Assembly: GCA_031763025.1 (NCBI GenBank)
Contig: JASSKH010000002.1
Span: 13,199,468-13,263,467, forward strand
From: Macrocystis pyrifera
Lineage: Eukaryota; Sar; Phaeophyceae; Laminariales; Laminariaceae
Direction of reading: 5' to 3'
Length of the DNA stretch: 64,000 nucleotides
Positions 817-39,515 of the stretch are shown in pieces (positions within the stretch are counted from its first letter, which is position 1; each line of letters opens with the position of its first letter). The notes below the pieces were generated by a model. The model searched no databases. It had not been told where the DNA came from and saw only the letters and a list, made by a program, of their open reading frames with translations. A program made the translations under genes and the position numbers.

Positions 817-1256
817 GGCAGCTGGAAAGCAGTGCTTCGCTTCTTCTGATTTAGATCTTCTTATTGATGGCGAGAGCTTAGGAGGTGCTCTGGTAGAGAA
901 GTGAGAGGTAGGGGGGGCGGGACTCGACGCCCAGATATACTCGTCCCACCCCACGCCACAAGCTCTCCCAAATTCCTCTTATCTGATGTACGCCTACAGA
1001 ACTTTCCTATGGCTACCGGTCGTTCTTCTGCTAATATAAGAACTTCTCCCTTCGTGGTCCTATCTGCGTTAAGGAATATTACTCTCGTCTAGGGGGTTAT
1101 CCGCCCTAGGGAACATTCCTAAAAGAACATTACTCTCGACTAACGGAATATCCGCCGGGTTAATCCATTCTTTGGATTATTCTCGTATTCGTGAGACTAT
1201 AAGACTGCAACGTATTATATATATCTATAGCCCATGAGTACTCTACTCATATCACA
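816..1256 (-). repeat. LTR-like 440-bp repeat, left copy
   Basis: It is about 99% identical by eye to 14519-14961, in the same orientation. The differences seen are one A in an A run, two substitutions near 880 and 920, and a small change in a TA tract. Read on the minus strand it starts TGTGATATGAG, just after a purine-rich stretch (AGGGTGGGCTAA) that resembles a polypurine tract, and ends near CAGCTGCCA. That suits a 3' LTR of a minus-strand retroelement. It contains the palindrome ATGAGTA-CTC-TACTCAT. The short frame at 901-1092 is present in both copies simply because the repeat is duplicated. Confidence 0.55.
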
Positions 1257-2890
1257 TTAGCCCACCCTGAATAGTCGTATATGCAGACCACAAGATGGTC
1301 GGAGGGTGATGACAAAGTTCATCCCGAACGGCCAGGAAAAAGGTGGTCGAAGATGCGGCTATTCGAAACAAAAGAAATGAGGCTATAGATCCCCCCACAC
1401 CTCGTAATAAAACCCAAACACTACGAAGAGGCGGTGTTCGCTGCGAACAACCACGGAAAGGGAGACTAAAGGAGAGAGAGACACAGAAGTCATAGCAGAG
1501 GCGAAAGGAAAAATCACCCAAAATGAAAACAAAGAAAGACGAACGCAAAATGAGGCAGAAACCGAAGCGAAGGCCGAAGAAGAAAACGAAGACCCAAATG
1601 AAGGCAAAAGAGGGACGTACAAGCGTTTCACTGGAGCCATTGCCTGGGCCCCAAGGAAGTACGAAAGGGTTGTTCGCTGAACCGGGTTGGCGAACGAGGA
1701 AACTCTAAAAAGGAGACAGCGATCACAATTCAAAAACATATATATATATATATATATCCGCTAGGCCCCATGCCTTGTCTTGTGGCGAAGGTCCTAACAT
1801 GGTAGTCATCATGCGAGACAGAAGGGACACAGCTAGAGTGCTATGAGGGCTGCGTGTACTAGGGACTACTAAAACCGAGAGACGCAACAAACAACGCGGC
1901 GTCTCGGAGACCTGTCCGTGGTGTGAACAAAACCAGCAAACGTAGCAAGGTAGCCAACTCAATAAAAACAAACTCAAAGACGGTGGCGGCAAGAAAATCC
2001 GCAAGAAAATCGGCCTAATGCGTGCAGTTCGAAGTTGTAGATAGCGCGGGGCCCAAACACTAGCGTGTGCAACTCGGTCAACCGGGGCGACATCAAACGT
2101 GGTGTCGTTTGCCAGAGGACAGAGGGGTGTGCGGAATACCGGACAAGAAAGAATGAAGAAGAAAAGGGAAAGAGAAAACGAAATACCATCGGGACCAGAA
2201 AACAGACAAAAAGCTGGACACAGGTCAGGAGAAACCGATCGTGTCCGAACCGCTTACGTATGGCCGATAACTCAGCGGCCTTCCGGGGCGGCAATGCTAT
2301 CGGGACCCTACTTGTCAAACATGGAAGAAACACGGGTGAGCTGGAAGCTCGATATAGTCTTAGCTCGAGGATCGTCTGAAACACGGGTCGGCGGAAGTCG
2401 ACTAAGGTCAGAGCACAGCTCAGGCTACAACACGATTTTACCTCGGCGTGATATCGCCGATAATTGGCTGTAGGCTAGTGGAGTACAAACACAAATGCAA
2501 ATGAAGGTATCGCTACGAGTCAGTGGCCTGAACGTAAGGAGGTTACACGGAGCCGTAGGCAATAAGAAGAAAAACAAACGGCGGGGTGGGGGGGGGCGAT
2601 GATACTCCCAAACATACCCAAAAAAGAAACATACACGGCCTCGGATCGGTAGCCAACTCGGGGTCGGTCGAGCGATACCGGTGGCGGTAGATGGAAACAA
2701 ACACTCCCAAGAAGATGACTGCTGATGACTATTGAAGACTAACCCTGAAGAACTACTCTTAGGATATTGCAGACTAACCAGAACCAAATACCCAGAACTA
2801 ACAAAAGACTAAACTAAGGCTAACCAGGGGGGGGAGTGGAAACGGTGGGGGTTCCGCGGGACGCATCAGAGTTCCGCAGCACCCCACGTG
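1257..2890. other. Non-coding stretch downstream of the gypsy pol
   Basis: Purine-rich, A-rich DNA with a (TA)n tract near 1740-1757. Frames here are lysine/arginine-rich because of base composition and match nothing recognisable. If the 440-bp repeats are LTRs of the gypsy element, this would be its 3' untranslated region. No LTR was found directly next to the pol end at 2891. Confidence 0.45.
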
Positions 2891-5700
2891 CTAGGGTTCC
2901 ATTCCCAGGCGTTGAAGACACCACGATCCGTATACGGCGTTCCGTGCTGTAGTGTAGCGGGCGGGTTGGAGGTCGATCTTGATCGGGCCGGGGTCGTCCA
3001 GGAACCGGACGATGTAGGAGCTTCCCGGTGAAGGCTCCGGCGGAGTTCCCAAAGAGGCGTCAGGGGGTGAAACTGTGAGCGACCTTGCCCAGCCACCAAA
3101 GGCCGTCGCGCGCCTTGTACCATATGTGTGCTCCGGAGGGTAGGATGGTGGTGCTGAAGTTGTGGAGCCAAAGGCTGCGGGAGACCAAGGCGTAGCCTGG
3201 GCGAGGAAGATTTGTCCTTGAGATCGTGCCAGTTCGCGGTGAGCGGCGCCGATGCGCATCTCGCGGTAGAGGCGGTTCGTCTGGCGGTGCTGGGTTGGTG
3301 ATCGTGACCAGTAAAGTAGGATGTGGCGCCGGAAGTGTTGAAGGTCCAGCTCGCGTTCCCAAGAGGGGCTGAGAAGTCCAGTCCAGTGACTCTCGTACAG
3401 AACGGCGATGACCCCGCCGCGGCCGCGTACGAGTTGATGGCCAGTGATCTGCTCGACCTCGAGGCGTTCTGGAGGAGGAGTGACGTCGTCGACGGTGACG
3501 TGGTAAGGGGGGGACTTGGCGGCAGAAGCTGTGAGCACGTATGTAGTAAGGTCCGCGGGCAGATGCTTGGGGATGTCGCTGGTGTTGTCGGGGTTCCGGC
3601 AAGGTTTGCATCGTTGGACGGAGACGCGTGGCTTGGAGTCCCGTCCCGGAAGGTCCGATGGAAGGTCGAGGAAAAGTATCTTGTCGTGAAGGGGGCGATT
3701 GTCGGGGGTGTTTGAGGCGGGCGTCGGCCCTACGGCGAGGACCTTGAAGGGGCCATTCCAGTTCAGGGAAAGCTTCGTCTTGAGGACGGTTGCGTCGGTG
3801 CCCTTTTTGACGCCTTGGCGGATGGTTGAGGCGGAATTGTGGACCCAAACCCAGCCGCCTACGGTGAAGGGGGGGGATGCTAGGAAGGCGGCCATGATGG
3901 GCGCATTGCGGCGCTGAAGACGCGAGACGGTGAGTCGGTGTAGTTCGCGGACGAGGGAATAGGCGCGTCGTTGTCGGTCGGTGGCGAGGTTGATGTAAAC
4001 CAGGTGATCGCGGTCCAAGCTTTGGTGACCGCCGATGTTGTCGGGTTCGAAGACCGAGAGCGGGAGGCGAGGAAGGTGGCCCATGTGGATTTCGTTAGGT
4101 GCAAGCCCTGTGGCGGCGTTCACGGAATTGTTGTAGGCCGACGACACGTGTGGGAGCAGCACGTCCCAGTCGGTCTGCTGTTCGTTGCCAACCATAGAGA
4201 GCATTTGGGCCAGTACGTGGTTGACGCGCTCGACGCCGCCGTTGGTGCAGGGGTGGTAGGAGCTGGTGTTGACCTTGTGGATGCCAAGGCGTTCGTAGAC
4301 GATGTTCGCAAGCTTGGAGGTGAAGTGTAGTCCGTTGTCGGAGAGAAGTGTAACCGGGCACCCCCAGAGAGGGATGTACTCGTTCAGGAAGATGTCGGCA
4401 GTGCCGGCGGCCGTGAACTGCGCCGCTGAAACGGCATACATATCGGCGCGGCGGCTGAAGCGGTCTGTGAAGAGGAGGATGTGGACGTTCCCCCGCGCGG
4501 CGTGAGCGGCAGGGGCCCGAAGTAGTCGACGCTGACGGTGATGCCAGGCCCGTTGGGCAAAGGAAGAGAAAGGATGGGCCAACGAATGGTGTGCCGGGAG
4601 GTCTTCCGCGCCTGGCATTGAAGGCAACAGCGGATCCACCAGCGGACGGAAGCGTCCATGCCAATCCACCAAAAGAAACGTGCCAACATACGGACCGTTC
4701 GGGTGACTCCCAGGTGTAGAGAGGTGGTGGCGTGGCATGTGTTCAGCACCCAAGGGCGCATTAACATTGGCACGTAGACGCGTGGGCGTGGGGTAGAGGG
4801 GGCGGGTGGTGGTAGGCTGTTCCCGGATGAGGTTGTGGGCGGTCGTTGAACCAGGAGGGTGGTTTCGTCGTCGGTACGGTGTAGCTTGCTTTTGGAGGCA
4901 AGAGTGAGGACGTCCGAAAGTTGTGGGCGCCGGGGCCGGGGGGATGAAGTCCAGGAGGTCGTGCGACGTGGGAGTGGGAGAGTCCAACGACAGGAGGCGG
5001 ATGGTGGCGCAGCACAGGGGCTCCGCGCGTTGTTCTCGCGCCCAGTCTTTGTAGGTGTAGTGCTCGACGCAGGCGAGGAGGTAGGGGTCATCATCGGGTT
5101 CGACGACGGGCTCCGGAAGGGGTACTGACGGTGGTGTTTGTGCCGGCGGCGAGGGCGTTTTTAAAGGGGTCGGTCTTTGCGTGGTGGGCGCCGATGGCTT
5201 GTGTGGCGGTCGGCATCCAAACCGGTAGTCGGCTGTGGGCCGAGGGGTTCCCGCGGCAGCGGCGACGCGATGGCGGGTCCGAAAAGATATCAGACCTGAA
5301 AGGGCTGGTGTCGTGGCGCCAATGGTGGGCGGCGGAGAGACGACGGACGGCATGGAAGCCGAGCCTGGAGGAGCTCCGGTGTTCACGGCGGCATTCTCGG
5401 TGCCGGCAAGCTGTCCGGTGGTGGAGTCGCGGGTCGCAATAGGCCCGATGAAGGTGTGGGTTGCGGGGGAAAGGGTGGGGTGCTCCATACGTGGTCCGAG
5501 TAGGCGAAAGTCGCGGAAGTCGTCGTCAGTGAAGGGGAGCGGCTGGACGGTCGGGATGGATCTGGAAGGGGGGGACACGAGCCCACCCAAGCCGATACCC
5601 GGGGTGGAAGGGTCGTTCGGCGCGAAGCCGCAGGGGCGGATGAGGTAGATGCCGACGGTGTCGGGGCCAGTGAGGCGGTTGCGTCCGGTGCGGTCGGCGT
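2891..5700 (-). pseudogene. Gypsy integrase and chromodomain
   Basis: C-terminal part of Pol. The zinc-binding region (about 4615-4740) reads CHATTSLHLGV... with a later CCLQCQARK, in the family style with FFWW-x-GM between. The catalytic core has the D-D-E triad: first Asp in SVDYFGPL (codon 4525-4527), second in LLSDNG (4337-4339), Glu in GVERVNH (4229-4231). The tail carries a chromodomain-like segment at about 3309-3463 with EVEQI, HWTGL and PSWERE, matching the usual YxVKWxG and WE positions; such modules steer insertion through chromatin marks. The integrase N-terminal half lies in another frame than its flanks, with changes near 4938-4943 and 4490-4494, so the gene as read is broken. 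A long proline/threonine-rich linker separates RNase H from the integrase. Confidence 0.88.
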
Positions 5701-7330
5701 CGGTGGCTGGTTGGGGAAGCCGGGAGAGGAAGTCGGCGTTGCCGTTGGTCTTGCCCTTCCGGCACTCCAGCGTGTAGGTGTACGCTGAAAGGAACTCCAG
5801 CCATCGCCGGACACGAGCGTTATGTTCTCCGACCTTGGCGATGTTCTCGAGCGCCTTGTGGTCCGAGTAGATCTGGAAGCGGGTGGACCATAAGTGTCCG
5901 CGGAGGCGTTTGATCGCCCACACGATGCTCCCGGCCTCGAGGTCGAGGGGTGTCCATGAACGTTCGGAGTCCAGGGTGGCACGGCTTATGAAGAGGATGG
6001 GGCGGACTGAGCCGTCGGCTTGCTCTTGCTCAAGGGTCGCTCCGAAGCCGTCGATGCTAGCGTCGCAGTAGAGGCGGAAGGGGCGGGAGTTGTCGGCGAC
6101 GGCGTCCCAGTCGGGGTAGACGAGGATCGGCGGTTCGGCAAGTTCTTGGAGAATGGCGCGTACGGTGGTTTCCATGGCGGGGGTGAAGTCGAACGTCGCG
6201 CCTTGCTTGAGTAGAGCGTTGATGGGGCGCAGACGTCGAGAAAGGTTTGGCAGGAACTTGCCGTGGTAGTTGATGCCTCCAAGGAGTGAGCGCACTTGCT
6301 TCTTGTCGGTCGGCATGGGCATTCTGGTGAGGGCGGCGACCTTGTCGGAATTTGGGCTGTAGCCGCCAGCGGAAATGGTGTGTCCCAGGAAATCGGCGGT
6401 GGTGGCGCCAATTTTGGCCTTGGCGGGGGGAGAGTTTGAGGTGGTGCTTCCGGAGGCGTGCGAAGAGGGCTCTCATGTTGGCGACGTGGTCGGTGGGGTC
6501 GGGGTCGAAGACGATGATGTCGTCGAGGTACGCGGCGACGCGTTCCAGGCCCTTGATGACCTCGTTGATGACCTTCACGAACCAGCCCGGGGAGGCGCTG
6601 CTTCCTTGCGGCATAACAAGCCATTCGAACAGCCGGTTGGAAGTGCAAAACGCCGTCAAAGGGATGGTGTCCTCGTCGATGGTGATTTGGTGGAACGAGG
6701 AGACCAGGTCGAAGAGAGAAAAGATGCGACCTTTGCCCAAGGAGTCGAGGACTTCGTCGACGCGGGGGATGGGGAGTTGCCCGAGGGAGCTGATGGCGTT
6801 GAGCTTCTTGTAGTTGATCGTAATCCGGACACCTCCATCCTTTTTGGGGATGGCCACCATAGGGCTTGAGTATGGCGACGTAGAATGTTGGATCAGGCCG
6901 GCGGCCAGGTACTGGTCTAATACTGCGTCTGCCTTCTTTGCGAGGATGGGGTTGATCCTGTAGGGGCGGGAAGTGACCGGTGCGCTGCCCGGGGGTACGG
7001 TGATCTTGAACGGCATCAGCGAGCACGAGCCGAAGTCGGTTTTTGAGGTGGAGAAAACGTCCTGGAACTCGCAGAGGACGTCTCCCAGGTTGTTGATATC
7101 CGACGGGGTCCATCAAGAACCGTGCAGGTCGAAGTTGCCGTCGCGTAGGTGTAACGGCAGACGTTCCCAGAGGTCGAGGAAGCTGTCCCGTTGGTCGGTG
7201 TTGAGGCGTGCAAGGAGTTGTGGGCACAGGGCTTTTGGTGCGGTAGGAGGGTCATCTGTCGATGGGCTCTGGTCGGCCACGGGGATGTTGTCGTGGAGGG
7301 CATGTACATCCGGAATCGGAGGGGGGGTGG
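5700..7330 (-). pseudogene. Gypsy reverse transcriptase and RNase H
   Basis: The RT fingers/palm begin near 7016 (MPFKITVPPG) and include SPMVAIPKKDG, the first catalytic Asp in FSLFDL, FEWLVMPQG, and the YLDD box at 6519-6530. RNase H follows at about 5723-6076, with LYCDAS (Asp codon near 6064), the Glu of PLDLEA, YSDHKAL (near 5863) and NADFLSRLP. The segment after YLDD continues in another frame through an extra base in the six-G run 6425-6430; beyond it the expected FLGH-type connection motif is readable. Upstream, a TGA at 7113-7115 interrupts the protease-RT linker, and a base appears missing in the seven-G run 7321-7327. The catalytic residues are all kept. Confidence 0.9.
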
Positions 7331-8446
7331 GGAGGGGCCAAGGAAGGGTGTCCAAGGGTGGAAAGTGGTACCTTTACCGGTGGGGAGTAGGAGGTTCCGA
7401 GGAGGTCGCCCGGCTCGAGATCGGTAGATCCGGATAGGGGGACCGTTTGGCATCCGTCGGAGACGAAAATGGCCGTGTCGGAAAGTGGGTTTCTCGCGGG
7501 GGAGCATGTTCACCATGTAGTTCCCGGTAAATGCTGGAGCGCCTGACTGGCGCGCCAGGTTGACCTTAACGAGCTTGGGGGTGGAGGAAAGCGAAATAGC
7601 TTTGTTGCCGGCGAATCGGAGATGGTAGACGTCGTCAGTGGAACGGTCGTCGGGAATGAATGATGAGGCTCCGTTGGGGTCATGGTGGTTCAAGGAGAGC
7701 TCACCGCGGGTTCGCCGGGGAGGTTGGTGGGGGGGGGTGGGCTGTTGCTGGAGCGTGGTATACGAGCGTTGCTCGAAGCGCATCCAGCTGTCTCGTCCCA
7801 GAAGGATGGGGTGCTGAATGGTTCCTGCAGGAACTACGCAGGCCCATACTGCCAGGGCAGCAGTGGGGGACTGGAGGCGCATAAACTGGATGCTTAAGCG
7901 GATGGAGACGGAGGTGGAGAGGGGGGCTGAAGTGCCGAAACCTCCCCATGAACGGGGGGAACTGTGCCGTTCGCACGCATCGGTGGCTGCCTGGGAAGCC
8001 TTCAGTTGTTCCACCGCGGATGCGGTGATAAACGACTGGGGCGAGCCGGTATCGAGCAGTGCCACGAGTTCGCGGCGCGTAGTGGCGGTGGGGCCGCTGT
8101 GCACGAGTACTTTCGTCGTGAATGACGCGTCGTCGATGGTAATGATGCCGCTTGTAAGGCATGGCCCGTGTTCCGGTATCGGCGGGCGGCGGGTAGGGAG
8201 GTGGCTGTGAGTTGCGGTGTTGATGGTGGACACTTGGGCAAAGTGGCTGCTGGGGTAGGCGTCGGGGGTAGACGGCGGTAGGAGTGGCCCAAGTGGAGAG
8301 GTAGGCGGTTGCCATGGAGGGGTTGGGCTTGTTTCGTGGATGCCGTCGGCTGTGGGGGAGACCCGGGTGGAGTCGGTGGGGGCGGGTGTTGGCTCCGGGT
8401 CGTGAAGATGGGGAGGAAATGGAGGCTGGGCGGAGCAATTGGCGCC
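7331..8446 (-). pseudogene. Gypsy aspartic protease region
   Basis: A retroviral-type aspartic protease lies at about 7778-8125. The active-site motif is ALLDTGSPQSF (DTG codons at 8045-8053), and the second hallmark is HPILLGRDSW, matching the ILGxD strand. It would cleave the Gag-Pol polyprotein. The region upstream of it is a proline-rich linker that runs directly, in the same frame, from the end of the NADAR domain, so protease and NADAR belong to one polyprotein. The linker after it leads to RT but is frame-shifted at 7321-7327. Confidence 0.85.
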
Positions 8447-8901
8447 GAGGCTTTCTCGAACGTCCATCAGTATCCTGCCCAGCAGATTCCGACCACGCCA
8501 ACGCGTCGGGTCACAGGCGTCCGGATGGTCGGCCTTGAAGCCTATGCCCAGATGGGGTCGTGTGGGCTGGCCTCGGCGATGTGCTTGTCGCCGGTTGCCA
8601 TTAGCTCCTCCCGTAGCTCCGGGTGTTGGCGGAACTTGGAGAAGTTAATGTAGAGGACGATGGTGTGGCGGTGTCGCTCCCAGACCATTTCGTCGAAGTC
8701 GGAAACGGTTCGCCCAAGTGCTTTTTGGCGGGCCGGGTCGCGGGTCGCTTTGATGCGGCGCTCAGTTGTGATGCCCCCGAAGAGCGCGGCCTTCTGCGCC
8801 ATCATCATCTGCTCAGCGCAGTTGTATGTGACGCCATCGTGTTCGATGTCGCACAGGTACCACAGCGAAAAGACCGAAGAGGAGTCCCAAAAGAAGTGGA
8901 A
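8447..8901 (-). pseudogene. NADAR (YbiA-like) domain in retrotransposon Pol
   Basis: A complete NADAR domain of about 150 residues, the usual family length. Visible family marks in order are FSLWY, YNCAEQMMMAQKAALF, RDPARQKALGR, WERHRHTIV, SKFRQHPEL, LMATGD, EASPHDPIW, then, after a one-base frame change in the CCC at 8547-8549, GIGFKADHP, WRGRNLLGRILM and DVRESL. The last part is in frame with the protease region, so the domain is the N-terminal portion of Pol. NADAR proteins are known to act on ADP-ribose-type substrates; some remove ADP-ribose from guanine in DarT1-type systems, and YbiA/RibX-type members act in riboflavin-precursor damage control. What this one does for the element is not known. 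The reading frame begins about 95 codons earlier, at 9186, with a serine/proline-rich lead. Confidence 0.9.
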
Positions 8902-9186
8902 AGATGAGGCTGCCTCTGCGGTGACGTATGCAGTTGATGGCGTCTTTTGTGTTGGGGGTGGGGGGCGACGATAATCTTTCCTATCGCCGCCTGGCGTCGA
9001 CGGAGGTAGAGTCAGCAATGATCGAGCGGTGCTGACCGGAACCCTCGTGTTCGCGGGGGAATTGCTCGGCAAAGCCGAGGTACCGGGGCGGTCCTCGCCG
9101 GGGCTTATAAGCCGGGCGGGACGACCCTCAAGCGCCCTATCGTCCAACTTTTGGAGAACAGGGGCATACTCGCTAGGGGATGCCAC
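8902..9186 (-). pseudogene. Serine/proline-rich lead of the NADAR-Pol frame
   Basis: About 95 codons of low-complexity sequence, opening with MASPSEYAPV and continuing in frame into the NADAR domain. It lies in a different frame from the upstream Gag tail, which could reflect a natural Gag-to-Pol frameshift or separate initiation. With so many frame breaks nearby this cannot be decided. No motif recognised. Confidence 0.5.
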
Positions 9187-10330
9187 ACCTGGGGTCCGTG
9201 TCCACGCTTTGCGCGAAGCAGGCGAGGAGGACGGGTCAGGGGGCTCAGGGCAGACCCTGGTCGACGTTGGTCGCGAGTCTTCCGTATTTAAAACGGGACT
9301 GTCCCTCGAGGCTCAGGGACAGCGGTGGTGTCAACACCGTGGCAGCTGGAGGAAGCCCGTCGTTCGCGGGTTCAACGCTGTAACAAGAAATGTGCGCATG
9401 CTGGAACAAGCGCGTATGGAGCGGCCAATTTGTGGCAGGCTCAGGGGGCAATGGCCCGGTAGACGAAACAGTAGTTTCGTGTGAACCGGAACCGCTGGTA
9501 GCCGTAATCGTCGAGACGTTTCCCAGGGTAGCAATGTCTGGGGTCTCGGCAATAGTCGGCAAGCAGCGTTTCTCACCGCCAGAAGACGTCGAGTGGAGCA
9601 TCCCGGTGGGGCTCGGCGCCTTGGCCTCCTCCCGCCCACACCTCAAGGCAATCACTTGGGCAAGATGATCAGTGCTTGAACAAGTGGCTATGAAATGGGC
9701 TGGGGTAGGGGGGGGGCATTGGAGGGCAGGGGTCGGGGAGGCGTGATGCACGTGATTTACTCGTGCGTCCTGGGAGCCTCGGGTGCTCGCAGTAGATGCT
9801 GTTGGTGGAGATGCGGCAGTTGCTCCACCATCGGCTTGTCAGTTGGTGCGGAAGGTTCCCGGCTGCCGCTGGTTCGGGTGGGTACCCGAGTTGGTGCTGC
9901 CCATCCGCATGTTCGCGGGGTCGGCAGGTGCGGAAGTATTGGTCGCAGGGGTATGCACCGTCAACGCGGAAGACGAGGGGGCAGGCTCGATGCGTTGTTG
10001 TTGGAACTGTTGCCCTGGCGACTGTCGGTTGCCGTTGTCGTATGACCGGCCGTTTTTGTGGCGCCAGTTGTCGGAGCGCCCGTTGTTGCCGCGGTAGTTG
10101 CGGGAGTGGTTCTGGTTGGAGCGGTTGCTGTTGTAGTTTCCGCTGCGGTTGTTGTTGTTGTTGCCTCGACGGTTGTTGTTGTCGTAGCGGTTGGAGTTTC
10201 GCTTCAGGTTGTGCTCGTAGTGTCCACGGCGATATAAGAGCATCCTCTGCTGCCATTGGCGGCAGGCGTGTCCGACTACCGGGCTGAGGATGCCGAACGT
10301 GTTGCGAAGCGCAGGGGGCAGGTCTTCATA
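9187..10330 (-). pseudogene. Gag C-terminal region, Asn/Arg-rich
   Basis: This continues the frame of the Gag part above after a TAG at 10331-10333. It reads through LPPALRNTFG, a remnant resembling a zinc knuckle (ACRQWQQRM then YRRGHYEH, with the expected later cysteine lacking), and a tail very rich in Asn and Arg (about 9960-10230), as expected for nucleic-acid binding. A TGA stands at 9839-9841, after which the same frame stays open to 9245. The Asn/Arg tail comes from GTT/GTC-rich triplet DNA, so slippage is likely. Confidence 0.55.
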
Positions 10331-11478
10331 CTATGTCCGTGCTATTGCAGTTGGGGTAGTGGTCACCGTGAGCTCGTAGGGCTTGGGCGTGGGACACCAC
10401 GACGTTCCGCCTCCGTCGTGGGCTCCGTGTTGGCTCTCGTCATCAGGCTGCGCGCTCGTGAGGAGCGGGGCGCTGTCGTCGTAGGGGGCGCTGTCGAGGT
10501 GGGAAGGGGCGGTGTCGCCGGCGATGGCATGTCCGTCGTGGGGCGGGTGATTGAGGGTGTCGGGGGAGCGGGTCGAGACGGTTGGGTTCCACACGTAGCC
10601 GCGGCCGGCGTTCGAGTGAAAATACCGTGGCTCGAGTAAACGGGTATGGGCGGCCCCGATGAACTCGGAAGAAACACCCTCGGTGGCGGCGCGGGCCAGA
10701 ACGAAAGTGATCGACGGGTTACAGTCGGGTGTGAAGAGCCGCCATACACGGTGTACCTCTAGCGAGACATCCGAGGCCGTCGCGTCGCGTGTACTCTGCA
10801 TCCAGCGGAGCTTAGCATCGAGGAAGACCCAGTCATTGGGCTCAAAGCCGAACGTCTGCGGGTGCCGGTGCCCAGTGGGTATGGGGGCTGGCAAGGGTTG
10901 GGCCGGTAGTGGTGCCTGGGACATTATGGTCCCAGTTTGGTTTTTGGGAGGCTGGGAGGTGGTGGTCCTAGACATCGCGGCGGACGTATAGGGTGCCCAT
11001 GGTGAGGAGCGAACGGCTGCGATTGGGCCGTGATGGCCGCGGTCGCAGCTGTAGTCCCATAGGTGGAGTCGAAAGGGTTCGAGGGAGGGGTGGGGGACGG
11101 TGGTAACACGAGTAGGAGGTCAGCGCCCTCTTTCGCGAGAAGGAGGAGCTTCTCGTGGTGGGCTTTGAGGGCCGCACGGCGCTCACGGAGGGCCGTGGGA
11201 TCGCCTTGGTAACGCCCCGGATTGAGAGCCAGGGTGGAGGTTTCCTGTGCAGAGACCTCCGGGTTGATGGTAGGCCCGACACTGGTCGTGCCTGCTCCCA
11301 TTGGAGAAGATCCCGGTGTGGTGGGGTGTAGCGTGAAGTCGCTCAGAATGGTTTCGAAGCCAGGGGTGTCGTCGTCGGTAGCGCGAAAGGTCCTTGCGAC
11401 ATACCTCGCCTCGCGAGGGTGGGTGGCGTCGGGGGAGTGGGCGCCAGGAATGTTGGTGGAGGAAGCTTTCTCGGCCAT
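10331..11478 (-). pseudogene. Gypsy Gag N-terminal and capsid-like region
   Basis: Two overlapping frames: 10924-11478, starting MAEKASSTNI, and 10331-10975, starting MSRTTTSQPP. They probably formed one Gag; the shift falls near the A/C runs at 10935-10975. The first has a charged helix-prone stretch (ALRERRAALKAHHEKLLLL), the second a region with FGFEPNDWVFLDAKLRW and TRLLEPRYFHSN. Position, length and the basic tail downstream support Gag. I do not recognise a named capsid family by sequence. Confidence 0.6.
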
Positions 11479-14400
11479 GATTAGGCGGGTGGAACGCTTG
11501 AAATGGGGCGGGAAAAGGTTTGGTGGAAGATGGAGAGGGTGGGTGGATCCAGGCTTGGATCAGGGTAGGCGGCTACAATACCAACGAACCGATCTAGGAG
11601 AGAAAAGGAGTGACGGTAAAGACGTACGATAGGAGGTGTTGAGGTTGTGCGTGCCACGATTTTGGTGCCCGTCGAAGGATATTTTTATAGTTGAGGGCAT
11701 CTAACTAGCGCCAGGCGCCTCGCGTTTGATCGCGCCCGGGTCACTCAAGTGATATCAGTTGAACAGAATTGAACAGAACTCCGTCTGAAATGCCCAATGT
11801 TCGTAATGATAACAGAGCGTGACGCTTACTGAGCGTGGGCAGTGCAAGACCTTTCGTTGGGATACTAATAAGAGTACCCGTAAAGAAAATGTGCAGGTCG
11901 AGTCGGGAAAAAAAAATGCAGCATGCCGGCACTATTTAGTAGCTGCACAGAATATCGGGCGATTCCCTGAACGGTGGGCAGCTTGTCGTTCCGTGGCAAA
12001 ACAGACAGTAACCGGTGCATTTCGGGGCGTCGCGAGGTCCGACACGATGTGAGATACGTAGGGTATATAAGAGGTAGCACAAGTGGGAAACCAAAAATAA
12101 ATAAATAGACCCCGGTACGTAAAAATGTGGAAAAGGGTATCATTTGGCTCCTGTGGGGAGGTCCAATACTCTAATCCGCCGCGAAAAATTGTATATTATT
12201 TTGTTTAATTTGGCCAGCATTTAGTTCATCTCTTTGGAACTGGTCACTGCCCGGGCCACAGTTATTATGTTCCATATGTGAGCAGCAGGCAGCTGCTGTA
12301 TTTGTGAGAAGCTGGACAAACAAGGGATAAACAGATGATATGTTACTCGTTTGTGTAACCTTTGTAGTGTTACAGTTCTAGGCAGCCTGTACCCTGCATA
12401 TTTGTAAAAGCGGGTGGGGATGGGATGCGCTGGAAAATAACACTTGTAACAAACTTGAACAGTGTCTGCCCTGCTTTGGCTAAAAAGTGGGGAAAAAAAA
12501 AAAGAGAAAACAAAAACAAAAGTCGAAAGCGAAACGGGAAAGGGAGGGAAAACAAACACGACCAAACAGAATATTCGGACCAGATGAGGTATCGTACATT
12601 CTGTTAATGTAGTACAGCTGGGGGGGGGTAGACGTAAACAGCAGTAGTCAGACAAGGTTGGGCGCCATAAAGCCTCGTTGTATCGTTAACGCTGAAGATC
12701 GTGCACGTAGGCAGCTTATACCTTATTTCTGGCGTAAAACTGAGAAATTTAGATGCACACAGGCAGCCGTGGGACAAGGTTCAGCATCATAAAGCTGTGT
12801 TATGTCGTTGACGCTGGGAAACGTGCACGTAAAGAGCAGCAGTAAAATAAAATAAAACAAAAAAAATGGAAATAATGGCCGTTATTTGTATCCTACAGGC
12901 TGTGGGGGTGGGGCAAAAAAGGTAGCAGAAATCTGGTCAATTTCGGCAACATGCGCCCTGTTTATATAATAAAGGCTCCGCAGGAGGTGCATCATGCCGC
13001 TTGTTCTGTACCTCGTAGGGTAGAAGCAGCGTAACGATGGGCCAATCTGAAGAGGGGTGCAGATATGTATGCTGGTCCCAAACGAGGTACGTATAACCAC
13101 GTGAGATTCGCCTACAGATATATCCCTAAAGAGCTACGTGCAACCATATAAGATTCGTCTGCGAGTATATGCGTTCCTATACGATGGATGTGCGACTCCA
13201 TCACATCGAGACGGGGGGACCTACCCAATTGTGTATCGTTTGGCTACCTAAATATATGGCAGGGAACGAGGGGGGGGTTCACGGGAATTTTCGCTACTAC
13301 ATACGTAATATTATTACTACGTACCACGGCACCACTATTCACTATTTGTACCTCGCTCGTATACCAGTCTCTGTAGGCCAGTATATGGTTTGAAATCCGG
13401 TATCCAAAGGGCATGAAAAAAAATAATAATAAATATATACACATGATTCTTCTCGCTATCAGGGGGGCGCAAGTGAGGTCAGTCAATACGTACACCATTG
13501 CTCGTGTCAGGTAAAAATAAATAAATAATAATAATGGCCTCTCAAGAACTCGCAGGCGAATATTCCATGCGATGGATACAAGCGGATACAATTCGCAATT
13601 ATGGTCAAGCCGTTTGTACGCTGCATACAGATGCGTATACTAACGATGGCGTAGTAGGTCACACCACCGGCATACATATCACGTGCCAAAGAATAAGGTG
13701 TCGGTACGTACTGCTGCGTGGTTGTCCTATCAGTACGATAGCAGCTTCTTTGTAGTCGTGGTAAGGGTCAAATCCCATACAACATGGGTATAAACCGGAA
13801 GATGCAGACAAAATGTCTGCGGGCAAGAATGTGTGCCAGTAGTTCCACATACAGTAGTACTTACTACGTGCATTTCCTGTGAAAGGGCGGGCATATCGAG
13901 GCGGAGGGGTACAAAGGAAAACGCTGCTTGGTTTGTGCGATGAGCACGAGGTCATTTGGGGGGTCTCCAGGTGCATTCAACCACGTGGAATCGTATCGTG
14001 GAGGTCATCGACCTCGTCATTCCACGGCGGAGACGGGGTATAAGGGGCGGAAAAACAAACCTCGATCATCATACTGCTAATAGCACCAGTACTTATATAT
14101 CAAGTACTTACTAAGAAAGAACAACAGAGCTTGTTGTACGTACTTGCACGTGCGATTTGACGGTGCCTACTAAGAGGGGAGAAGCGTCAACTCACCTATA
14201 CTGGGAGGGGGGAGAAGCATCTACTTATGCCACTAGGCAGCTTGTCACGCTCTACACTATAAAGGCACTCAGTAACGCAGGTTCGTAAAATAAAAAGAAG
14301 AAAAAACAAAAGAAAAGAGAGAGCAAGAAGAACGAAAGAAACGAGAAACAGGGAACATATAAACAAAAATAAGTAAATAAAAAGTTGACTTCAAAACCAG

Positions 14401-14518
14401 ATGCCTCCCGGATAGGGATGGCTCACATGATCGTGAGAAGGTCTAGAAGAAGCGCTGCAGTCCCAAGCTTGGCCAGAACATTCGTTGAATGCGACGACGT
14501 CAGATGTGATGCTCTGAC
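11479..14518. other. Non-coding stretch upstream of gag
   Basis: Three kilobases with no recognisable gene. It could be the 5' leader of the gypsy element if the 440-bp repeats are its LTRs, though 3 kb would be long. It contains a diverged tandem pair at about 12645-12720 and 12775-12845, sharing CAAGGTT...CATAAAGC...CGTGCACGTA. It is A-rich near 12490-12545 and 14285-14385. Confidence 0.45.
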
Positions 14519-14961
14519 GGCAGCTGGAAAAGCAGTGCTTCGCTTCTTCTGATTTAGATCTTCTTATTGATGGCGAGAGCTGAGGAGGTGCTCTGGTAGA
14601 GAAGTGAGAGGTAGGGGGGGCGGGACTCTACGCCCAGATATACTCGTCCCACCCCACGCCACAAGCTCTCCCAAATTCCTCTTATCTGATGTACGCCTAC
14701 AGAACTTTCCTATGGCTACCGGTCGTTCTTCTGCTAATATAAGAACTTCTCCCTTCGTGGTCCTATCTGCGTTAAGGAATATTACTCTCGTCTAGGGGGT
14801 TATCCGCCCTAGGGAACATTCCTAAAAGAACATTACTCTCGACTAACGGAATATCCGCCGGGTTAATCCATTCTTTGGATTATTCTCGTATTCGTGAGAC
14901 TATAAGACTGCAACGTATCATATATATATCTATAGCCCATGAGTACTCTACTCATATCACA
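14519..14961 (-). repeat. LTR-like 440-bp repeat, right copy
   Basis: Near-identical direct partner of 816-1256. On the minus strand it starts TGTGATATGAG and ends at CCAGCTGCC, followed by GTCAGAGCATC. That resembles only weakly a methionine-tRNA primer site (TGCCGTCAGAGC against TGGTATCAGAGC), so the match is not proof. No 5-bp target duplication shared by the outer flanks was found. Confidence 0.55.
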
Positions 14962-15087
14962 TCACCTTATATAGGCCGATATATCCAGTCATAGCGGACG
15001 TATATATCATATACCAAATATCATATCACATTTTAGTCAAATCGTGCTGAAAGCCCCTATATATAACGATGTAATACGATATGATAT

Positions 15088-16235
15088 ACAAGGCGCTTCG
15101 CTCCGCGGGCGGCCTACGCCGCCCGCTACGCTCGCTCAGGAAGGAAACATCAAATTATACGAAGCGGACAGAGGTCCATGATTGAATATTGTTTTTTTTT
15201 ATGGCCCCTGTAGTTAGCTGCGAACTGGCGACTTGATAATGCCAAGAGTCCCGCCGCCATGCTTCAGGAGAAAACAGCTCGGACGCCACATATGCTTCGC
15301 GTCGCGGGCGGTTTTCCGCTACGCTCGCTCACACGTCGTACATACATACGTACATACCCCAGGTAGGGTGCTTATTTTCTTCTTTCGATATGCTCTGTGT
15401 CTGTGGACTCGTATGTACGAAAGATAAAGCACAGAACGGCACAGCAACACAGCAAAAACAACGAAATTGAAACCGAAAAATTCGAAATGAAAAAATCCCC
15501 GTCCCCTTTCGTGTAATAATTTACTACCTGAGTGGAACACCTTACACCACCAGTAAAAAAAAAAAATGAAGAAAAGAAACAATCTTACAGCAGAGCTTCT
15601 ATCTCAGTCTCATACGCCGCCCGCCCCTCTCGCGACCATCTCGCAATCGATTCAGTCCGGGTAAAGCTTCCCTCCCTCTCTTCCACAGTGAGCCCCGTCG
15701 CCCGCCTCGCGTGAAGCCCGGTGCTCACCGTGGACCTCGACGCAAGCTCGACAATGTTGGTGCTCATTCGGGGTACCTCCCTCTTGTGACTCTCAGTCTG
15801 ATCGCGAAAATAAGCACCGCTTGAATATTATCTTACAATCCCGAACGAACCTTAAATACTCGTACGTACTCTATCCAAAATCGTAAATGGAGGCCAGACA
15901 GAGCCTATTGATGCATCCCTCGTGTCTCGAGGCACACGCGACGCCTAGGCACGAAAGCGGCGATCGCGCTCCTTGCAACTCCCCCTTTACTCGCCTGCAT
16001 CCGCTGACACCCGCGACGGTGCCGGGTTCGCCCGCGCAACCGTGCTCGGAGTACACGCACGCACACGAAACGAAAGAAGAAAAAAGGAAAGAAGGACTCA
16101 AAGTACGACGCGAAATAAATGGAGAAAACAAAGACTCGCTGGAACGGTCCGGCAAGTAATAAACGGAGGCGATTCCCAAGTGGGAGCTCTGAGGATGTAC
16201 CAACCGAGCACTCTCAGAGGTTGAGATATCTATAA
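15088..16235. repeat. 1.15-kb tandem duplication, unit 1
   Basis: It begins with a GC-rich hairpin (arms GCGGGCGGC at 15105-15113 and its complement at 15118-15126, loop CTAC) and ends with the word GAGGTTGAGATATCTATAAG. The same order of sequence is repeated in unit 2. A 60-codon minus frame at 15585-15767 is kept in both units, but its differences are mainly amino-acid-changing, so it is probably not a gene. Confidence 0.85.
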
Positions 16236-16243
16236 GTATATCT

Positions 16244-17396
16244 ACAAGGCTATTCGCTCCGCGGGCGGCCTACGCCGCCCGCTACGCTCGCTCAGGAAGG
16301 AAACATCAAATTATGCGAAGCGAACAGAGGTCCATGAGTATTGTTTTTTTCATGGCCCCTGTAGTTAGCTGCAAACTGGCGACTTGATAATGCCAAGAGT
16401 CCCGCCGCCATGCTTCAGGAGAAAACAGCTCGGACGCCACATATGCTTCGTGTCGCGGGCGGTTTTCCGCTACGCTCGCTCGCACGTCGTACATACGTAC
16501 ATACCCCAGGTAGGGTACTAATTTTCTTCTTTCGATATGCTCTGTGTCTGTGTACTCGTCGTATGTACGAAAGATAAAGCACAGAACGGCACAGCAACAC
16601 AGCAAACACAATGAAAATGAAACCGAAAAATTCTAAAAGAAAAAAATCCCCGTCCCCTTTCGTGTAATAATTTACTACCTGAGTGGAACACCTTACACCA
16701 CCAGTAAAAAAAAAGAAAAAAATGAAAAAAAGAAAAAATCTTACAGCAGAACTTCTCTCTCAGCCTCGTACGCCGCCCGCCCCTCTCGCGACCATGTCGC
16801 CACCGATTCAGTCCGGGTAAAGCTTCGCTCCCTCTCTTCCACAGTGAGCCCCGTCGCCCGCCTCGCGTGAAGCCCGGTTCTCACGGTGAACCTCGACGTA
16901 AGCTCGACAATGTTGGTGCTCATTCGGGGTACCTCCCTCTTGTGACTCTCAGCCCGGTCGCAAAAATAAGCACCGCTTGAATATTATCTTACAATCCCGA
17001 ACGAACCTTAAATACCCGTACGTACTCTATCCAAAATCACAAATGGAGGCCAGACAGAGCCTATTGATGCATCCCTCGTGTCTCGAGGCACACGCGACGC
17101 CTAGGCACGAAAGCAGCGACCGCGCTCCTTGCAACTCCCCCTCTACTCGCCAGCATCCGCTGACACCCGCGACGGTGCCGAGTTCGCCCGCGCAACCGTG
17201 CTCGGAGTACACGCACGCACACGAAACGAAAGAAGAAAAAAGGAAAGAAGGACTGAAAGTACTACGAGAAATGGAGAGAACAAAGACTCGCTGGAACGCT
17301 CCGGCAAGTAATAAACGGAGGCGATTCCCAAGTGGGAGCTCTGAGAGGCCAGGGATGTACCAACCGAGCACGCTCAGAGGTTGAGATATCTATAAG
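16244..17396. repeat. 1.15-kb tandem duplication, unit 2
   Basis: Collinear with unit 1, with scattered substitutions and small indels. It carries the same GC-rich hairpin near 16261-16282 and the same ending. A diverged third copy of the middle section lies far away at 46565-47075, so the unit derives from a dispersed family and not only a local duplication. Confidence 0.85.
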
Positions 17397-18590
17397 TTGT
17401 TCTATATCGCACGTTCCGGTGAAAAAAAACATGACTAAGTACTATGGAAATATCATATCGTATAGGGGGTATATATAAGGTAGCCCTATACTGATTGTTA
17501 TTGCCCTCGATAAAATGCATTCGAGCGCTGTTCTCAGTTTGCTTGTCTCTTTTTTTGTGAAGTCGCAGGTGGAGTTGTTGATGAGAGTGACGGGAGAGGC
17601 CAGTCGGGATCAGCACAGACGGAACCCCAGAGTGCTGTGTCTGGCTCAGGCAGAGCGTCTACTTGTTGACTATCGGTACCACTTATTATATAGTACTCGG
17701 CGGGGACATATATCCAGCAGCAGCACACGAAGACGGCACGAGCACCCGTACCAGTACCACAGCAATGGGATCGATATCATTGAGATGTAATTGGGGCTGC
17801 AGGGCTGAATACAAGACTGTTGGCCAATGAAAAACGCAACATGAACGGGGAGAGATCTCCAACAATCATTCAGAAAGCTGACGACGCTCTCTTGGCCAAA
17901 GCAAAACATGTCGGTTGTTTATTACAACACAAGTAAACCACATATTGACAAGACCTTAGAAATCTCTGTACCGCGAAATAGTTGTTGGCGAAATGAGAAC
18001 TGATCTGAGGTGGATGCATGCTCTGGGGGGCAAGAGCTTGCCGCCGGCGTCCTACGGAATCCTCCCAAACCTGCAAAAAGCCCATATTTTGTTGTGTGAT
18101 GTTACACATTCGACAGATTGGCGTCTTTTCAACAGCCCGGCTATTATTTTTGCGAGTACCGAAACAATACGACGAGAGGATAGCAAAATACAAATAAAGG
18201 CGATTTCAAAAATTTATAAAATAAAGGCGAAAAGTAGAAAGTAATCAACTACGCGTAACTGCTCTGTGCTGTTGTTGTAAAATACCTACGATAATAGTAT
18301 TCAATCTTGGGTCATTCTTTTTGCGAGTACCGAAACATTCATACGACGAGGATCGCAAAATACAAATAAAGGCGAAAAGTAGAAAGTAATCAACAAACTA
18401 CTATGTTGTTGTAACAGACCGACGATAGTTCGTCTGCATTTTTTTAGTAGTAGTATGCTATTTTTCAACAGTACTCTTCAGGTCCTGGAGTATTAGCGCA
18501 GAACGAAAATTGAATATGGTGTTTTCGTCGGTACACTTATTATCCAAAAATGATGTCTCTCCGGCATGTGCTTTATCAATTTTATAATTT
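17397..18590. other. No gene; fragment of the 26-kb repeat family
   Basis: At about 17995-18080 there is a copy of the GGTGGATGCATGCTCT...CAAGAGCTTGCC repeat that occurs three times at 26.1-27.0 kb. A short duplication around CGAGTACCGAAACA...ACAAATAAAGGCGAAAAGTAG occurs at 18150-18240, 18320-18390 and again near 19000-19055. Nothing else was recognised. Confidence 0.55.
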
Positions 18591-21129: not shown

Positions 21130-24100
21130 GACTGAAAAAAAAAAAACACACCTTCCCCGCCCATGGACGGGTGCCGCGCACACGCACTGCAACAGCACAC
21201 AAACCAACGTGTGGCTCATACTTCCCCAGATGAACGATACACGAAATAAGGGCGACGAAGTCAACAAGTTGCGACACTTGCTTCGCTGAAGCAGATGCAC
21301 ACACTGCAACAGGACACTGCCTCCCCCTGTGGACGGGTGTTAAGCACACGAAGAAACACCAAGATGCGACACATGCTTCGCTGAAGCAGACGCACACACT
21401 ACAACAGCACACCGTCCCACCCTCTAGGCGGCTGTTACGCATAAGAAGAAACAGGTACCCATGAAATCCGCGGCGGCGGAGATACGCGGTGTACCCATGG
21501 ACACCACGAAACGCGTTGCGAAGAATCCCCCCAGGTGACCGGCACACGGACATGCGCGAGGAAGCCGACTAGTTGCGACGCCTGCGCGGCGCTGAACCAG
21601 ATGCACACACTGCACACACTGCAACGGCACACAGTCCAACGTGTATCACATGCTTCCCCGGACGAACGGCAAACAAAACATGCACGAGGAAGCCGACGAA
21701 GTGCGGCATCTGCAAATATCTGACATGCAGCGCTGAAGCACACCCACACACTGCAACAGCACCCGGTCCAACCTGTGGCAAACGCTTCCGCGAATGAACG
21801 CCACATGAAACACGGACGAGGGCGCCAACAAACGCGACGCCTGCATCGCTGAAGCAGGCGCACACGCTGCGACAGCACACCGTCCCCCCTGTGGACGGGT
21901 GGTACGCAGACGAAGAAACGAGAACCGACGCAAATCGCTTTGGCGGCGATACGCGGTGTGCCCGCGGAGGTCACCAAACATATCGCAAAAAAACTTCCCC
22001 CGGATGAACAGCTAACGAAACATGCACGAGGAAGCCGACGAGTCGCGACACCTGTAGCGCTGGAGCAGATGCTCATTCTGCAACAGCACACAGTCCAACT
22101 TGTGCCACATACTTCCCCGGATGAACGACACGCGAAACATGGACGGGGGAGCCAAAGAGTTGCGACACCTGCTTCGCTGAAACAGACGTACGCACTACCA
22201 TAGCCCACGGTCCAACTTGTGGCACACGCTCCCCCGGATGAACGACAAACGCACACGAAACATGGACGCGTAGCGCAGGAGCAGACGCACATGCTGCATC
22301 AGCACACTGTCCAACTTGTGATACATGCTTCCACGGATGAACGGCACACGAAGCACGGACGGGGAGCCAAAGAGTGACACCTGCTTCGCTGGAACAGACG
22401 TACGCACTGCAATAGCACACGGTCCAACTTGTGGCACACGCTCCCCCGGATTCCCGGATGAACGGCGCACGAAACACGGACGGGGAGCCAAAGAGTGACA
22501 CCTGCTTCGCTGGAACAGACGTACGCACTGCAATAGCACACGGTCCAACTTGTGGCACACGCTCCCCCGGATTCCCGGATGAACGCGCACGAAACACGGA
22601 CGGGGAGCCAAAGAGTGACACCTGCTTCGCTGAAACAGACGTACGCACTGCAATAGCACACGGTCCAACTTGTGGCACACGCTCCCCCGGATAAACGGCA
22701 CACGAAACACGGACGGGGAGCCAAAGAGTGACACCTGCTTCGCTGAAACAGACGTACACACTGCAATAGCACACGGTCCAACTTGCGGCACACGCCTCCC
22801 CGAATGAACGGCACACGAAGCACGGACGGGGAGCCAAAGAGTGACACCTGCTTCGCTGGAACAGACGTACGCACTGCAATAGCACACGGTCCAACTTGTG
22901 GCACACGCTCCCCCGGATTCCCGGGTGAACGGCACACGAAACACGGACGGGGAGCCAAAGAGTGACACCTGCTTCGCTGAAACAGACGTACGCACTGCAA
23001 TAGCACACGGTCCAACTTGTGGCACGCGCTTCCCCGGATAAACGGCACACGAAACACGGACGGGGAGCCAAAGAGTGACACCTGCTTCGCTGAAACAGAC
23101 GTACGCACTGCAATAGCCCACGGTCCAACTTGCGGCACACGCCTCCCCGAATGAACGGCACACGAAACACGGACGGGGAGCCAAAGAGTGACACCTGCTT
23201 CGCTGAAACAGACGTACGCACTGCAATAGCACACGGTCCAACGTGTGGCACACGCTTCCCCGGATTCCCGGATGATCAGCACGCGAAACACGGACGGGGT
23301 GCCAAAGAGTGACACCTGCTTCGCTGAAACAGACGTACGCACTGCAATAGCACACGGTCCAACTTGTGGCGCACGCCTCCCCGGATGAACGGCACACGAA
23401 ACGGACGGGGAGGCAAAGAGTGACACCTGCTTCGCTGAAACAGACGTACGCACTGCAATAGCCCACGGTCCAACTTGTGGCACACGCTTCCCCAGATGAA
23501 CGGCACACGAAATACGGACGGGGAGCCAAAGAGTGACACCTGCTTCGCTGAAACAGACGTACGCACTGCAATAGCACACGGTCCAACCTGTGGCACACGC
23601 TTCCCCGGATTCCCGGATGAACGGCACACGAAACACGGACGGGGAGCCAAAGAGTGACACCTGCTTCGCTGAAACAGACGTACGCACTGCAATAGCACAC
23701 GGTCCAACTTGTGGCACGCGCTTCCCCGGATGAACGGCACACGAAACACGGACGGGGAGCCAAAGAGTGACACCTGCTTCGCTGAAACAGACGTACGCAC
23801 TGCAATAGCACACGGTCCAACTTGCAGCACACGCCTCCCCAAATGAACGGCACACGAAACACGGACGGGGAGCCAAAGAGTGACACCTGCTTCGCTGAAA
23901 CAGACGTACGCACTGCAATAGCACACGGTCCAACTTGTGGCACACGTTCCCCGGATGAACGACAAACGCACACGAAACATGGGCGCGTAGCGCTGAAGCA
24001 AATGCACATGCTGCATCATCACACTGTCCAACTTGTGACACATGCTTCCCCAGATGAACGGCACACGAAACATGGACGGGGAGCCAAAGAGAGTGACACC

Positions 24101-24640
24101 TGCTTCGCTGAAACAGACGTACGCACTGCAATAGCACCACGAAACATGGACAAGGAAATAAATAAGATACGACACCTTCTTCGCTGAAGCAGGCGCACAC
24201 ACTGCGACAGCACACCGTCCCCCTGTCGACTGGTGATATGCACGACACCTGTAGTGCTGAAGCAGACGTACATGCTGCAACAGCACACAGTCCAACTTGT
24301 GGCACATGCTTCCCCGGATGAACGGCACACGAGACACGGACACTGGAGTCAAGGAGTTGCGACACCTGCTTCGCTGAAACAGACGCGCGCACTACAATAG
24401 CACATGGTCCAACGTGTGGCACACGCTCCCCCGAATGAACCGCACACGAAACATGGACGAGGAAGTCAACAAGATGCAACCTGTTTCGCTGAAGCAGGCG
24501 CACACCCTGCGACAGCACCCCCGACCCCCCTGTGGACGGGTGCTACACAGACGAAGAAACGAGAACCGACGAAATCCGCTTCGGCGGCGATACGCGGTGT
24601 ACCCACGGAGGTCACGAACCCGCTCGTGGAACTTCTCCCG
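21130..24640. repeat. Satellite array, diverged flanks and ordered core
   Basis: About 3.5 kb built from one family of units carrying words such as GACACCTGCTTCGCTGAA, CAGACG, GCACACTGCAA and GTCCAAC. The flanks (21130-22330 and 24000-24640) are diverged and carry a longer sub-unit, GGACGGGTG...GGCGGCGATACGCGGTGT, at about 21450-21530, 21895-21990 and 24535-24625. The core is regular. Long minus-strand frames here are a by-product of the unit and are treated as non-genic. Confidence 0.9.
22330..23990. repeat. Satellite core with 113/113/121-bp higher-order period
   Basis: The anchor GGGGAGCC (one copy GGGGTGCC, another GGGGAGGC) starts at 22361, 22482, 22602, 22715, 22828, 22949, 23062, 23175, 23296, 23407, 23520, 23641, 23754 and 23867. 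Intervals are 121, 120, 113, 113, 121, 113, 113, 121, 111, 113, 121, 113, 113. The 121-bp units carry an extra ATTCCCGG. From 22602 the order 113-113-121 recurs, a three-monomer higher-order unit of about 347 bp. Confidence 0.92.
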
Positions 24641-38105: not shown

Positions 38106-38156
38106 TTACTTGAAAACTCGAATTTTTTATTTTTTCAGTAACCCAAATACCCCCTC

Positions 38157-39345: not shown

Positions 39346-39515
39346 TCACGAATCGTGATTTTTTTTTTTTTAGGGAAAAGCTAAAAAAAATGGCGTCATG
39401 AATCGTGATTTTTTTGTCGTGAATCATGAATCGTGATTTTTTTGTCGTGGTCCACGACAAAAAAATCACGATTCACGACAAAAATCTCACGAATCATGAT
39501 TTTTTTTTTTTTTTG
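39345..39515. repeat. TCGTGATTTTTTT cluster with a 49-bp palindrome
   Basis: The word AATCGTGATTTTTTT or its complement occurs five or more times. A perfect palindrome has 24-base arms at 39427-39450 and 39452-39475 around one T, with GTCGTGG-T-CCACGAC at its centre. An inverted-repeat transposon end, or the product of element-end fusion, is the simplest reading. Confidence 0.9.

Follow-up and report, generated by a model that had tools for sequence, protein, structure and literature searches.

Organization of the element

The stretch of Macrocystis pyrifera DNA analysed here (the window, 64 kb in length) carries on its minus strand a retrotransposon with paired long terminal repeats (LTRs) in direct orientation, which align with each other over 444 columns (Table 1). 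The paired LTRs, together with the order protease, reverse transcriptase (RT), RNase H and integrase between them, place the element in the Ty3/Gypsy group; in this assignment the protease is recognized by its motif and by the alignment of database relatives. Head-to-tail copies of about 1.15 kb with 93% identity (15084-16237 and 16240-17397) lie just outside the element.

Table 1. Features of the NADAR-bearing element in the window.
Feature	Position	Strand	Basis
Complete element, ~14.1 kb	817..14962	-	LTR pair and domain order
5' LTR	14519..14962	-	98.9% identity with 817-1257
Probable gag region, overlapping ORFs	9839..11559	-	placement between 5' LTR and Pol only
NADAR, profile positions 1-130, ORF 8542-9312	8545..8895	-	PF08719 E=3.5e-33; AlphaFold model
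NADAR, profile positions 129-162, ORF 7016-8644 (other frame)	8447..8551	-	PF08719 E=3.9e-7, 30.9 bits, cut-off 35.1
Aspartic protease region	7508..8152	-	LLDTGSPQSF motif by eye; 33 of 113 database relatives align there
Reverse transcriptase	6414..6851	-	Pfam RVT_1 E=6.3e-24
RNase H	5780..6094	-	Pfam RT_RNaseH E=3e-28
Integrase zinc-binding domain, another frame	4597..4773	-	Pfam Integrase_H2C2 E=2.6e-16
Integrase core, weak match	4250..4495	-	Pfam rve E=2.6e-5, 24.9 bits, under cut-off 32.6
Putative chromodomain	3305..3460	-	PF00385 E=0.019, 15.3 bits, under cut-off 25.1
3' LTR	817..1257	-	98.9% identity with 14519-14962

The original prediction described a complete NADAR domain that leads directly, in the protease frame, into the remainder of Pol. 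This order is borne out, and RT, RNase H and integrase were all recovered downstream by Pfam, the integrase core as a weak match below its cut-off. The continuity of frame is not: the first 117 NADAR residues lie in one ORF and only the last fifth of the domain (about 35 residues) shares the frame of the protease, and further shifts separate protease from RT and RT from RNase H and interrupt the integrase. These changes of frame along Pol identify the window copy as damaged. In other kelp copies (for example L179, L181 and L186) the matches to NADAR, protease, RT and RNase H all fall in a single frame.

The window protease gave no Pfam match, and the relative P0017 displays Asp_protease_2 only at E=0.027. 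Pfam scans of the ORFs at 9669-10325, 10331-11119 and 10924-11559 in the gag region were likewise without a match, and inspection of the element by eye revealed no recognizable target-site duplication or primer-binding site. Taken as a whole, the sequence comparisons indicate that the window almost certainly contains one copy, with a broken frame, of a Ty3/Gypsy LTR retrotransposon that is present many times in M. pyrifera and groups with the NADAR-bearing Gypsy elements of Ectocarpus.

The C-terminal end of Pol and the chromovirus label

The element had initially been called a chromovirus with a chromodomain at the end of Pol. A putative Chromo match is present at this position; however, it is weak, below the cut-off in the window and missing from the full-length scans of four of five relatives. 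The PF00385 match has E=0.18 in a 286-residue piece of the window translation and gains significance when the piece is trimmed to 95 residues (Table 1). In trimmed C-terminal pieces Chromo is the sole Pfam match in all seven aligned rows, these being the window and six of the 14 relatives found, with a best E of 0.0017. In full-length scans it is absent at E<=1 from P0016, P0017, P0046 and P0023, and reaches just 0.098 in P0033. Comparison of the chromodomain profile with the PDB gave MPP8 and swi6 chains as the best matches (E 0.12-0.15), followed by an unrelated hydrolase at 0.16. The available text of PMC12477816 describes the chromodomains of Ectocarpus Gypsy lineages as putative and these lineages as unrelated to chromoviruses; because it sets them apart in this way, the name chromovirus is not supported for the window element.

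Identity and predicted fold of the NADAR domain

The NADAR assignment at 8447-8901 proved correct in its coordinates and in its motifs (YNCAEQ, RDPARQKALGR, SKFRQHPEL, EASPHDPIWG and WRGRNLLG), with a Pfam score far beyond chance. Two overlapping pieces on the minus strand, which together span 8447-8895, cover 162 of the 163 positions of the PF08719 profile; the first scores 115.6 bits against a cut-off of 35.1, while the second falls below this cut-off when taken alone. The description of the domain as complete thus holds for the profile, nearly all of which is covered, but not for the reading frame, since the domain is split over two frames in this copy.

The AlphaFold model of the piece at 8545-8916 has a mean pLDDT of 94. 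A Foldseek search with this model found only two PDB matches at E<=0.001, 8bau (E=3.2e-7, with a TM-score of 0.86 by query length and 0.58 by target length) and 2b3w (E=1.5e-4). The predicted structure of an intact relative, P0134 (pLDDT 93), matches 8bau at E=1.4e-11, and the two models resemble 8bau and Escherichia coli YbiA and no other PDB entry at this threshold. The structure prediction therefore recovers the NADAR fold, and its nearest neighbour is the ADP-ribose-bound NADAR of P. nicotianae (8bau), which has the same fold and active-site residues as the window domain. Three features of the YbiA subfamily are present, namely a PF08719 match above cut-off, a glutamate at the position of E125 and the predicted NADAR fold. 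In contrast to bacterial YbiA-type proteins and the P. nicotianae NADAR, which stand alone or are linked to DarT, the window domain is located inside a retrotransposon Pol.

Copies in the kelp genome

When the host assembly was searched with the Pfam NADAR model, all of the best 150 of 1264 candidates scored exceeded the cut-off. The same search with the NADAR piece of the window gave 78-100% identity for the best 150 of 1062 candidates scored (the window itself included), and by our own count about 124 of these 150 window-type matches have no stop inside the match. A domain with this degree of similarity is therefore present at a minimum of 150 places, and the original prediction, which would have lost its force had related copies lacked NADAR, gains from this result.

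We fetched 40 loci from the 150 places found with the Pfam model; since they came mostly from the top of the ranking, with some chosen for the length of their open reading frames, this sample favours well-kept copies. In all 40 the protease lies next to NADAR on the same strand, 242-288 bp after it; RT is found further downstream in 28, and a stop interrupts NADAR in eight. We considered a one-off insertion or an accident of assembly and rejected both in view of the many copies and the constant linkage of NADAR to protease. The loci divide into two families, with 12 of the window type and 28 of the other type; the NADAR of L181 has a mean identity of 48% to the other type.

Ten of the 12 window-type loci (L176, L177, L182, L183, L196, L197 and L203-L206) are without RT and share one deletion of about 1.17 kb, equivalent to 6977-5802 of the window. 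Its breakpoints coincide in seven loci and are displaced by a few bases in L182, L196 and L197. The flanking parts are retained at 93-97% identity. NADAR is free of stops in all ten, and a profile scan puts the protease, or at least part of it, in the same frame as NADAR; a cruder motif scan placed the protease motif of L204 in another frame and missed the NADAR motif of L177. L196 and L197 are 31 kb apart on one contig, and L176 and L205 are alike in score; some of these loci may thus be duplicates of each other rather than ten certain independent insertions. The retention of NADAR in this derivative is only suggestive of its importance, since protease and integrase escaped the deletion just as NADAR did.

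The contig that contains the window (22.0 Mb, 4.1% of the assembly) holds 38 of the 150 window-type matches and 26 of the 150 Pfam NADAR matches, as counted by eye. The binomial probability of this excess is about 1e-19 for the window type and 5e-10 for the Pfam model, values that refer to best-scoring matches only and to copies that are not independent. Our guess is that this contig is scaffold 2 of the giant kelp genome paper (PMC10498591), which in the available passage, on sex-determining regions, is described as gene-poor and of lower diversity in its second half.

Relatives and prior reports

A database search with residues 1-420 of ORF 2891-6472, in which scoring was limited to the 7996 candidates with most words in common, returned 113 proteins, of which 20 by our own count are named Ectocarpus sp. 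CCAP 1310/34. The expected class of Ty3 Pols that open with NADAR was found: the domain was detected in 27 of these relatives, as it was before the protease in every kelp locus fetched, and was not detected in the other 86. The NADAR-to-RT spacing is 470-519 residues in 13 of the 27; in the other 14, many of them partial or spliced models, it differs or cannot be measured. In a quick tree the RNase H of the window falls within a 97-row group (SH-aLRT 100) that contains the Ectocarpus sp. CCAP 1310/34 proteins.

In most NADAR-less rows of the brown-algal group the sequence starts so close to RT that the domain could not be included, but four rows of the group (P0090, P0030, P0063 and P0106) have at least 640 residues before RT. 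P0090, with 662 residues in this region, seems genuinely to lack NADAR and possibly represents a stage that preceded its acquisition. In P0030 and P0063 the domain appears to have been skipped by the gene model, P0063 retaining about 30 residues that resemble by eye the start of a NADAR, and P0106 has PF14214 at its front. Outside the brown-algal group, P0116, P0119 and P0127 also have at least 640 residues before RT and no NADAR.

NADAR-bearing retroelements have already been catalogued, the available text of PMC12477816 (September 2025) describing one Gypsy lineage of Ectocarpus sp. 7, Gypsy-12_Ec32 and its relatives. Because the same arrangement was published there, the kelp element is a new, expanded branch of a known family and not a new kind of element. 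The two share NADAR in the N-terminal region of Pol, before the protease, an order that the window keeps despite its broken frame; sequence comparisons used the Ectocarpus sp. CCAP 1310/34 proteins as stand-ins for Gypsy-12_Ec32. The kelp element differs in its high copy number and RT-less derivative, and the window NADAR is just 41-47% identical to seven other retroelement NADARs aligned beside it. The words kelp, Macrocystis and Saccharina are absent from the main text of PMC12477816. Our analysis thus extends the 2025 report to another brown-algal genome. New here are the kelp representatives of the lineage, a NADAR branch that has diverged, an RT-less derivative that has been amplified and retains NADAR, and data that point to selection and to a conserved active site.

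More distant parallels are known by description. The Tx1 LINEs of the Pacific oyster, as presented in part of PMC12477816, have a NADAR in ORF1 and are also retroelements, but of the non-LTR type and with a divergent NADAR. Nidoviruses, picornaviruses and hepe-like viruses likewise carry NADAR in their replication polyprotein, according to the accessible text of the survey of viral NADARs (PMC9503650), but differ from the kelp element in having an RNA-dependent RNA polymerase. That same portion of the survey contains none of the terms retrotransposon, retroelement and reverse transcri-, and among the matches listed in open-licence literature on ADP-ribosylation acting on retrotransposons nothing dealt directly with NADAR.

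In Ectocarpus, the stress-induced protein Esi0017_0056 (391 residues, with NADAR/DUF1768 at 132-291) has mostly prokaryotic relatives according to an excerpt of PMC7922944; it is perhaps a fragment of such NADAR retroelements or descends from them.

Origin of the NADAR domain

The nearest stand-alone relatives found for the domain are mostly bacterial where named, with one sponge among them. A five-residue loop after FW and the NLLG motif are common to the retroelement NADARs, the window and a bacterial subtype that includes Myxococcus, Corallococcus, a planctomycete and a proteobacterial MAG; this likeness agrees with the suggestion, made in the part of PMC12477816 available to us, that horizontal transfer was the source of NADAR.

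A single capture is sufficient to account for the sequence relationships, although our first tree, built from 31 retroelement rows, 17 of 80 viral loci and 32 of 119 cellular rows, seemed to argue convincingly for two captures, or for an exchange of the domain inside a single Pol lineage, by which window-type and Ectocarpus-type NADARs would have come separately from bacteria. In this tree, which used the N-terminal piece of the window, the retroelement label needs two changes, and one change suffices in 1% of 200 bootstrap trees. The window NADAR has a mean identity of 43.5% to 27 other retroelement NADARs and 46.7% to 32 cellular ones, and the window RNase H, unlike its NADAR, falls among those of other retroelement Pols. 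However, likelihood tests rejected neither a single retroelement clade (p-AU 0.469) nor the nested placements tried (p-AU 0.19-0.35). In a later tree with nine of the 12 window-type and seven of the 28 other-type kelp loci added, and without P0003, part of which is out of frame, the one-clade tree was 4.88 log units higher (p-AU 0.579). RNase H also allows window-type Pols to lie outside the rest (p-AU 0.44), and in its loop and NLLG motif the window agrees with the bacterial subtype that the other retroelement NADARs also match. At equal RNase H identity, NADAR identities of pairs that include the window are 0.37-0.48 (20 pairs) against bin means of 0.51-0.61 for the others; these values are lower yet mostly inside the range of the other pairs. 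Two captures therefore returned to the position of an alternative, which we consider unlikely.

Conservation of the active site and selection

Residue numbers follow the P. nicotianae NADAR, as given in the accessible part of PMC11543638 and transferred through alignments. The window has E43, K50, K75, R79, W89, R93, E125, D130 and W133, with F in place of Y84 and E in place of D86. Across 31 retroelement rows, for which five of the 27 NADAR-bearing Pol proteins were excluded for short domains, E43 is conserved in 26 of the 27 with a residue, K50 and W89 in 31 of 31, E125 in 28 of 30 and W133 in 28 of 29; in the 40 kelp loci E43 and K50 are each found in 39, and E125 and W133 in all. Among the 31 rows R93 is replaced by cysteine in 12, and position 86 varies widely. 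The conserved residues have thus been kept across copies, as the prediction of a functional NADAR demands, and loss of the active site was rejected.

The same portion of PMC11543638 reports aspartate at the position of E125 in the BC4488 type, and in the antitoxin NADARs linked to DarT1, and histidine in the phage type. No aspartate was found at this position in the window or the 40 kelp loci, all of which have glutamate; the window domain is therefore not of the DarT1 antitoxin type.

For diverged pairs of copies (pS>=0.4) the median dN/dS is 0.174 for NADAR, 0.18 for protease, 0.082 for RT and 0.073 for RNase H, from 84, 50, 23 and 12 correctable pairs, respectively, with only near-full single-frame matches admitted as rows. 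Mean pN/pS values are 0.356/0.748 for NADAR (336 pairs, 40 rows), 0.344/0.737 for protease (105 pairs, 22 rows), 0.123/0.666 for RT (23 pairs, 24 rows) and 0.179/0.745 for RNase H (34 pairs, 19 rows). The NADAR ratio of 0.17 is rough, because synonymous sites are near saturation (mean pS 0.75, with 84 of the 336 pairs correctable). Near pairs have higher dN/dS (0.43 for NADAR, 0.47 for protease, 0.32 for RT and 0.54 for RNase H), as expected where decay after insertion is mixed in. NADAR in this lineage is under purifying selection, like the protease, and is less constrained than RT. From the predicted structure and the aligned residues, we consider it very probable that the NADAR of the lineage is catalytically competent.

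Possible function in the retrotransposon

The original prediction, which referred to DarT1-type systems, was that the element may carry NADAR to reverse ADP-ribosylation of its nucleic acid, or to handle a nucleotide by-product during reverse transcription. Fold, active-site residues and selection speak for a catalytic NADAR that acts on ADP-ribose, but not for one of the DarT1 antitoxin type; its target could be element nucleic acid, a nucleotide by-product or a host signal. In the mechanism we propose, a working ADP-ribosyl hydrolase would be made in the same amounts as Pol and would enter the particles together with the RNA of the element, where the protease might cut it free. It would there remove ADP-ribose, linked to guanine by analogy, from element RNA or cDNA and so unblock reverse transcription. 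Removal of guanine-linked ADP-ribose is the leading guess because the oomycete NADAR, the nearest solved relative, acts on guanosine-linked ADP-ribose, a hydrolase activity described in the available text of PMC11125620. A kelp Gypsy element whose NADAR de-ADP-ribosylates its own nucleic acid is the best explanation of the data as a whole, to which we give a little less than an even chance; this particular substrate and role, argued from the oomycete enzyme, we put forward more tentatively.

NADAR might instead process the RNA intermediate, or ADP-ribose derivatives left as by-products of RNA repair, with no mark of host defence involved. Such a role has been suggested for the Ectocarpus retrotransposons (PMC12477816, in the text available) and a place in repair systems for NADARs more widely (in part of PMC9503650), and it would conserve the catalytic residues equally; we regard it as rather unlikely, and the element ORFs scanned against Pfam, which lie within 2891-11559, contain no KptA, ligase or 2H. 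Action on soluble host signals, such as cyclic ADP-ribose or other NAD-derived molecules, is argued for many phage NADARs in that survey and is compatible with a domain that is not of the DarT1 antitoxin type. The same excerpt, however, argues that the NADARs of eukaryotic RNA-virus polyproteins target mainly macromolecules, and a product made at the level of Pol and held inside a particle would be a poor means of clearing a diffusible signal, which makes this reading improbable. It is less probable still that NADAR is now a structural or nucleic-acid-binding module in which catalysis no longer matters: ligand contacts do vary at position 86 and R93, but E43, K50, W89, E125 and W133 are near-completely conserved in the retroelement rows and kelp loci.

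If the element does carry a nucleic-acid de-ADP-ribosylase in its particles, brown algae may restrict retroelements by ADP-ribosylating guanines in RNA or cDNA. We think this unlikely as it stands, and raise it because NADAR has been preserved through a large expansion and in the RT-less derivative; if true, it would amount to a base-modification defence in eukaryotes and a countermeasure borne by a retroelement. PMC11125620, in the portion available to us, calls the physiological roles of NADARs in eukaryotes unclear. A NADAR fixed beside protease and RT, selected and multiply copied, allows this question to be addressed in vitro and hints that brown algae may control their retroelements through ADP-ribose.

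Other features of the window

A tandem array occupies 22294-24137, with 12.2 copies of a 113-bp unit over 22574-23968. On the minus strand at 42261-43109 lies a Copia-type gag ORF (PF14223, E=1.7e-7), which marks a second LTR element or its remnant. Direct repeats of 1.2 kb at 28774-29970 and 38153-39351, 97.8% identical and 9.4 kb apart, are possibly the LTR pair of another element.
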